64,000 nt of DNA from Halorubellus sp. JP-L1 (GTDB lineage Archaea; Halobacteriota; Halobacteria; Halobacteriales; Natrialbaceae). The position numbers and the translations under genes were made by a program. Positions 49,190-50,436 of the stretch are shown here, piece by piece. The DNA is taken from contig NZ_JAAOIR010000001.1 in NCBI RefSeq assembly GCF_011440375.1, positions 620,001-684,000 on the forward strand, read 5' to 3'. Under the pieces are notes generated by a model. That model was given only the letters and a program-made list of their open reading frames with translations. It ran no database searches and was not told the DNA's origin. Numbering within the stretch: position 1 is the stretch's first letter; each line of letters begins with the position of its first letter.

Positions 49190-49398
49190 TCCGAATCTCT
49201 CTCGACTTCTCCGCTCTCGCCACGGCCGAAAGCGACTGCGTTCCTCCGCGCAGGCCGTGGCGCGAGTCGTGTGGTGTGCGTCCAGGGACGTGCCAGTGCG
49301 TTCGATCGAGTTCGTCCGGATGGGAGGTGCTGAGGCGGTGGTCGCGTCCGGCGGTTTCGACGGACCGACGACCCCGTGGTACCGGGCGTGGTCGGTAC
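49190..49398. other. spacer before the candidate RNA
   Basis: GC-rich convergent spacer after tbsP without a recognisable feature. Its left part could contain the tbsP terminator, but no T-run is seen. Confidence 0.4.
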
Positions 49399-49406
49399 TT
49401 TTAATA
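49399..49406 (+). promoter_or_regulatory. TATA-like element of candidate RNA
   Basis: TTTTAATA in a GC-rich context, very close to the haloarchaeal TATA consensus. Transcription would begin about 26 bases on, at 49427-49430, which is exactly where the first hairpin starts. No open reading frame begins there. Confidence 0.6.
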
Positions 49407-49426
49407 TCATGTGGGGGCTTGGCCTA

Positions 49427-49525
49427 AGTGACGCTTCGCTTGGAGGGCCGAAGCGTCAGCGGGGACCAATCAGGGCGGCAAGCGGGCACGCGGTTTTTCC
49501 CCGCGTGCCCTGCTTTCCTGTTTCG
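49427..49525 (+). ncRNA. candidate structured small RNA
   Basis: Predicted from the sequence alone. Hairpin 1 at 49430-49457 has a perfect 9-bp stem (GACGCTTCG/CGAAGCGTC, 10-base loop). A single-stranded segment follows. The terminal hairpin at 49484-49510 has a perfect 10-bp stem (GGGCACGCGG/CCGCGTGCCC, loop TTTTTCC), followed by TGCTTTCCTGTTT, a T-rich archaeal-type stop. It sits between convergent genes with its own TATA. No C/D or H/ACA box was identified. Alternatively it is two terminators; the promoter argues for a transcript. Confidence 0.45.
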
Positions 49526-49659: not shown

Positions 49660-49950
49660 TTACTCGACGCTGAGCGTGCCGTCCGTGCCGTCGCTCCCGC
49701 TCTGGTTCTCGTCCCACTCGAGTTCGAATTCGACGCTGAGTTCGCCGGTGTCGGCGCCGGTGCTGGTCTCGCGTTCGACCTTCACCTCGAACTCGGGCGT
49801 GGCGGGTGGCGTGACCGTGATGGAGTCGCTGCCGGCGCTGAGGGTGATGGCGTCCCCTGCGTCGAGTTTGTCGGCGGCGTTCCGGAGGACGGCGGCGATG
49901 TCCTCGCGGCTCATGTGCGATTCGGTCTCGAAGAGTACCTCTTCTGGCAT
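49660..49950 (-). CDS. amphi-Trp domain protein
   Basis: 96 residues. MPEEVLFETESHMSREDIAAVLRNAADKLDAGDAITLSAG is the family start; the beta strands FEVKVERETSTG and LSVEFELEWDE follow. The family is small, widespread in haloarchaea and sometimes fused to other domains; function unknown. It is convergent with the candidate RNA. Confidence 0.85.
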   Translation of the reverse strand: MPEEVLFETESHMSREDIAAVLRNAADKLDAGDAITLSAGSDSITVTPPATPEFEVKVERETSTGADTGELSVEFELEWDENQSGSDGTDGTLSVE

Positions 49951-50151: not shown

Positions 50152-50436
50152 ATGTACGACCTGACAGGATTCCAGCGTGATCTGCTGTACGTCATCGCGG
50201 GGGCAGACGAACCACACGGACTGGCTATCAAGGAAGAACTCGAGGAGTACTACGAGAAAGAGATCCATCACGGGCGCCTCTACCCGAACCTCGACACGCT
50301 CGTCGACAAGGGCCTCGTCGAGAAGGGCGAACTCGACCGTCGAACGAACTTCTACTCGCTGACGCGACGCGGCAGTCGCGAGATCGATGCGCGACGAGAG
50401 TGGGAAGCCCAGTACGTACCCGACGAGGCCGAGTAG
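50152..50436 (+). CDS. PadR-family transcriptional regulator
   Basis: 94 residues, one winged helix. MYDLTGFQRDLLYVIAGADEPHGLAIKEELEEYYEKEIHHGRLYPNLDTLV shows the recognition helix (GRLYPNLDTLV) typical of PadR; KGELDRRTNFYSLTRRG is the wing. It lacks the long C-terminal coiled helix of full PadR. A clear TATA-like TTTATTAAATT at 50110-50120 precedes it. Its stop lies three bases from the stop of the convergent AI-2E-type gene. Confidence 0.9.
   Translation: MYDLTGFQRDLLYVIAGADEPHGLAIKEELEEYYEKEIHHGRLYPNLDTLVDKGLVEKGELDRRTNFYSLTRRGSREIDARREWEAQYVPDEAE

Follow-up and report, generated by a model that had tools for sequence, protein, structure and literature searches.

A predicted small RNA gene of Halorubellus sp. 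JP-L1 belongs to a haloarchaeal family with a nearly invariant 5' element

The Haloferax volcanii small RNA sRNAhts10, also named HVO_2213s, is said to have been reported by Heyer 2012, and is covered by Jaschinski 2014 (PMC3956466). It was predicted by comparative genomics and detected by deep sequencing (RNA-seq), it has been reported in 18 other haloarchaea, and its deletion has mild effects, namely a longer lag on acetate and small changes in yield (PMC3956466). Haloarchaeal sRNAs have been called fast-evolving, with 22 of 27 restricted to H. volcanii (PMC3956466). Two predicted sRNAs, HVO_2908s and H3.2, occur in H. volcanii vesicles, and those of Hbt. salinarum contain close matches (PMC10927574). 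A CdrS ChIP site lies over the start of an unannotated H. volcanii transcript between HVO_2907 and HVO_2910 (PMC8406309), which is possibly the HVO_2908s of the vesicle study. The JP-L1 RNA that we propose here resembles HVO_2908s and H3.2 as a conserved intergenic haloarchaeal sRNA. Its family represents the opposite extreme to fast evolution, with a core that is nearly frozen across an order, and has no Rfam entry.

The gene lies in a 64,000-nt stretch of the JP-L1 genome (the window; Table 1), where a sequence-only reading had proposed a promoter, two perfect stems of 9 and 10 bp and a T-rich tail between convergent genes, together forming a structured RNA of about 100 nt of no known class. 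The convergent flanks, both stems and the TATA element at start distance are all present. The tail stands only in part, as CTTTCCTGTTTC is moderately T-rich and no more, and the run of five Ts (U5 in the RNA) belongs to the loop of stem 2. The loop of stem 1 is CUUGGAGGGC, and a G-rich linker, AGCGGGGACCAAU, joins the 5' hairpin to a longer 3' hairpin in which stem 2 is extended outward. Folding energy is low for the composition (z = -2.91, with 1 of 200 shuffles equally low), and the RNA is single-copy in the 3.76-Mb host genome. In 70 of 81 homologous loci, stem 1 begins 30 nt after a TTTA box, and a CG at -37/-36 and an A at -33 are near-invariant. The distance from TATA box to transcription start is known in archaea, and given the 30-nt spacing the RNA should therefore start at or just before the first base pair. 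We infer that JP-L1 transcribes the gene with the ends predicted here, giving an RNA of about 95 nt, which fits the earlier estimate. The element is almost certainly a real non-coding RNA gene.

Table 1. Features of the predicted RNA gene and its flanks, in window coordinates.
Feature	Position	Strand	Basis or remark
tbsP	end 49189	+	convergent flank
Compact ncRNA gene	49399-49520	+	
BRE/TATA promoter element, ends in TTTTAATA (49399-49406)	49393..49406	+	81 homologous loci
Predicted transcription start	~49428-49430	+	TATA spacing (30 nt after TATA) and known archaeal distance
5' hairpin, stem GACGCTTCG/CGAAGCGTC plus T-A closing pair, loop CTTGGAGGGC	49429..49458	+	invariant in 78/81 loci
Stem 1 (9 bp), GACGCTTCG with CGAAGCGTC	49430-49438 with 49449-49457		tenth pair T49429-A49458
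Invariant single-stranded linker AGCGGGGACC	49458..49467	+	homologous loci
3' hairpin, covarying, terminator-like; outer CAGG/CCTG and AAGC/GCTT pairs, inner 10-bp stem	49471..49520	+	
Stem 2 (10 bp), GGGCACGCGG with CCGCGTGCCC	49484-49493 with 49501-49510		
amphi-Trp gene	49660-49950	-	convergent flank
PadR-family regulator, hsRosR-like	50152..50436	+	context, outside RNA; most constant RNA neighbour

The lack of a known class is borne out by Rfam 15, whose one match in the window at gathering score is a tRNA away from the RNA locus; sub-threshold matches were rejected as chance. The invariant core holds neither the C (RUGAUGA) nor the D (CUGA) motif of a C/D box guide RNA, and for an H/ACA guide RNA we find no conserved ACA in the varying 3' ends and no Rfam match. 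A small protein-coding ORF was also rejected: the loop changes length by one base (CTT/CTTT) while codon positions are otherwise all invariant, and the loop variants CTT, CTTT and TCT exclude a conserved reading frame. A literature search for the literal core sequence gave no occurrence. The Haloferax RNA itself is known, but the literature searched does not describe the family: neither how widely it occurs, nor its frozen core, nor the presence of two copies in one family of genomes.

Within the host's order, the RNA is nearly universal. BLAST recovers it in 56 of 61 relatives, and a 60-nt covariance model built on the 5' half gives a match in 284 of the order's 293 genomes and in 253 of the 255 near-complete ones, with absences confined to three families (f2, with genomes of ~1 Mb, f9 and f11). 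The same model found nothing convincing outside the order in a scan of the phylum, where matches at E 0.004-0.006 were treated as chance. A pattern scan gave named matches across many genera, Actinarchaeum halophilum among them, but its 119 loci were selected by an exact 28-mer and are left out of the evidence for invariance, for which we use the 81 distinct loci that BLAST or the covariance model retrieved with no exact match demanded. In 78 of these 81, the same 35 bases are identical (GACGCTTCG-loop-GGAGGGC-CGAAGCGTC-AGCGGGGACC), and these fixed bases plus a variable loop part of 2-4 nt (CTT, TCT or CTTT) constitute the 5' element. One locus (L191) has an A to G change in an otherwise intact core, where a G-U pair keeps stem 1 paired, and another (L202) is missing one C. 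L207 (G084:C1:611427-611483) is an extra copy that has degenerated and looks like a paralogue in decay.

The earlier reading had named compensatory change among homologues as a check on both stems, and this check is informative for one of them. Stem 2 is compensated: seven pairs show changes on both sides, in 42 cells altogether, where shuffled alignments give 14.1 +/- 4.2 (0/500), and while these shuffles ignore sequence relatedness, slid controls that retain it are 31-45% paired against 96% for the stem. Stem 1 is near-absolutely identical in homologues and invariant in the covariation alignment; it shows no covariation because it shows no variation. The sequence of the 3' hairpin differs freely among families and has been replaced wholesale in some clades. 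In Halorubrum-type loci, a terminator hairpin of different sequence follows directly after GCGGGGACCAAU, and the functional part is therefore the 5' element. A promoter-hairpin distance that homologues keep and a second stem that covaries are decisive that the hairpins exceed chance, and the reading as a short structured RNA is supported.

The common gene order around the RNA is DUF7117 (-), a conserved 48-codon ORF (+), the RNA (+), often an amphi-Trp gene (-), PadR (+), AI-2E (-), MgtC/DUF4010 (+) and an aminotransferase (+). Of 149 loci, about 100 have the PadR gene, whose product resembles hsRosR (E 1e-26), 250-700 nt downstream of the RNA in the same orientation. The JP-L1 gene has an identity across loci of mostly 80-91%. 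In most haloarchaea (132 matches among 205 loci; for example L093:6649-6795, minus strand), the 48-codon ORF (MRSESEVREQYEFLRDELDSEEMRHEGVRKLMTHYKRALGWVLEEEHM), which matches no Pfam family, has its end ~60-130 nt ahead of the RNA core, and its sole match in the host genome lies ~85 kb from the RNA, at G000:C1:755118-755261. By the covariance model, genomes of family f5, which we take to be of Haloferacaceae type, nearly always carry at least two RNA copies. The second Haloferax copy is found beside genes for an E1 dehydrogenase, AsnC, TrkA and an MCP, and second copies in other genera lie beside a different gene set.

The order in Haloferax elongans is E1_dh-AsnC-TrkA-AsnC-gene-RNA-MCP, with matching genes at other Haloferax loci. 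The orphan E1 gene oadhA4 of H. volcanii is HVO_2209 (PMC8305020), and the RNA comes after the fourth gene past oadhA4 and before the MCP gene, which is the placement of HVO_2213s. Because of this gene count, the second Haloferax copy is very probably HVO_2213s (sRNAhts10). The JP-L1 family and HVO_2213s share wide haloarchaeal conservation (18 genomes reported there, 284 of 293 here), but HVO_2213s, as matched by gene order, lies at another locus, has another 3' hairpin and has a mapped region of 161 nt against the ~95 nt predicted for the JP-L1 RNA. The JP-L1 element is thus more than a lone candidate, since it belongs to an order-wide gene family with a Haloferax paralogue that maps to sRNAhts10/HVO_2213s. 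HVO_2908s is probably different, as synteny would place the padR-linked Haloferax copy near Fen1 (HVO_2873) and not near HVO_2908. The CdrS-bound gene between HVO_2907 and HVO_2910 was likewise rejected as the H. volcanii copy, with synteny pointing near HVO_2213 and Fen1.

The explanation that we consider best overall, and to which we would give even chances, is that of a trans-acting RNA with a 5' element that a conserved partner reads. A stand-alone gene with its own promoter would give a structured RNA of ~95 nt with two domains. The first is the invariant 5' element, made up of the GGAGGG-loop hairpin and the linker AGCGGGGACC. The second is a 3' hairpin for which folding alone would suffice and which would terminate the transcript and protect its 3' end. 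Action in trans is suggested by the stand-alone promoter, the terminator-like end and the dispersed paralogues, which carry the same 5' element in unrelated neighbourhoods. Typical antisense RNAs keep their seed and let their stems drift. Here, a stem that is identical across the order beside a freely covarying 3' hairpin suggests that the stem sequence itself is read, and hence that a partner does the reading. The entire 5' element, stem included, would then be read by sequence by one conserved putative partner, probably a protein, so that the RNA would form an RNP or serve as a decoy instead of being a plain antisense seed. The protein step and any regulatory outcome are inferred, and we rate a protein partner at somewhat under even odds; many mRNA targets, or one invariant RNA target, would also give invariance. 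The mild effects of deleting HVO_2213s speak against this explanation, though another copy may compensate.

Small RNAs with an invariant, protein-read element include 6S RNA and the CsrB-type RNPs, and the JP-L1 RNA may work like these, by analogy only, since it has no relation to them in sequence or structure and no Rfam match. It is a more speculative idea still, and one we hold to be rather unlikely, that an undescribed haloarchaeal RNP is defined by this RNA and serves as a core-cell regulator or as a ribosome or polymerase factor with 6S-like reach. If the RNP reading is true, a partner would have coevolved with the 35 frozen bases from the time of the ancestor shared by most of the order, and copy redundancy would explain the mild Haloferax deletion.

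We favour a protein partner over base pairing with mRNA or rRNA. As an antisense sRNA, which strikes us as possible but doubtful, the RNA would act in trans through its unpaired loop UUGGAGGGC and linker AGCGGGGACC, pairing by way of GGAGGG or GCGGGGACC with C-rich mRNA stretches and altering translation or stability. Both unpaired G-rich tracts are indeed invariant, and haloarchaeal sRNAs with mRNA targets exist, such as SHOxi and sRNA132 (PMC12482152, PMC6560208). However, the stem varies no more than the unpaired parts do, and the 10-mer complement GGTCCCCGCT is not enriched in the genome: it occurs at 9 sites, one of them the gene itself, while the reversed control occurs at 14, and the 8 sites outside the gene show no obvious start-codon pattern. 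Target-motif counts from 21 genomes are symmetric between strands and bound by composition, and so weigh neither for nor against pairing. The exact GGAGG in the loop could also mimic a Shine-Dalgarno sequence and pair with the 3' end of 16S rRNA, making this a ribosome-associated RNA, and ribosome occupancy is seen for many sRNAs of H. volcanii (PMC12482152). The computed duplex reaches -9.8 kcal/mol, for a short generic anti-SD (the motif was not found in the contig searched), but comprises 5 pairs only, where a full SD gives -18.4 kcal/mol, and other rRNA complementarity is no better than that of shuffled queries. We regard anti-SD pairing as improbable.

The position of the RNA upstream of PadR, co-oriented and at the distance given above, could instead indicate a cis element of the RosR-like gene, such as its leader or an attenuator, and a close PadR orthologue is likewise not found in 9 tested genomes without the RNA. 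This joint absence is confounded by phylogeny and incomplete genomes, while an RNA with its own promoter and terminator-like hairpin, an opposite-strand amphi-Trp gene that often intervenes, and paralogues away from PadR make a cis role very unlikely; a PadR leader as such was rejected on spacing, terminator and paralogues. Least credible of all is a conserved DNA element, a binding or recombination site with incidental hairpins and no RNA. A perfectly identical inverted repeat can reflect DNA recognition, but the fixed TATA spacing, the compensatory change in stem 2, the terminator-like end, and the RNA-seq detection of the mapped Haloferax copy all argue against it.

The copy-number map shows how a single Haloferax deletion may have masked the RNA's role, and single-copy genera provide a cleaner knock-out background. 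The alignment and model can be converted to an Rfam family straight away. No exact match to the 28-mer occurs in viral contigs, and plasmids hold two partial copies only, both unannotated and on replicons listed as plasmids: NZ_CP142029.1 310994-311047 in Haloarcula sp. GH36, and NC_012030.1 51427-51464 in Halorubrum lacusprofundi. Among Natrialbaceae-type loci (for example L014, L016 and L019), a ACGTATCAC-like motif recurs ~25 nt upstream of the TATA box and is a possible activator site.
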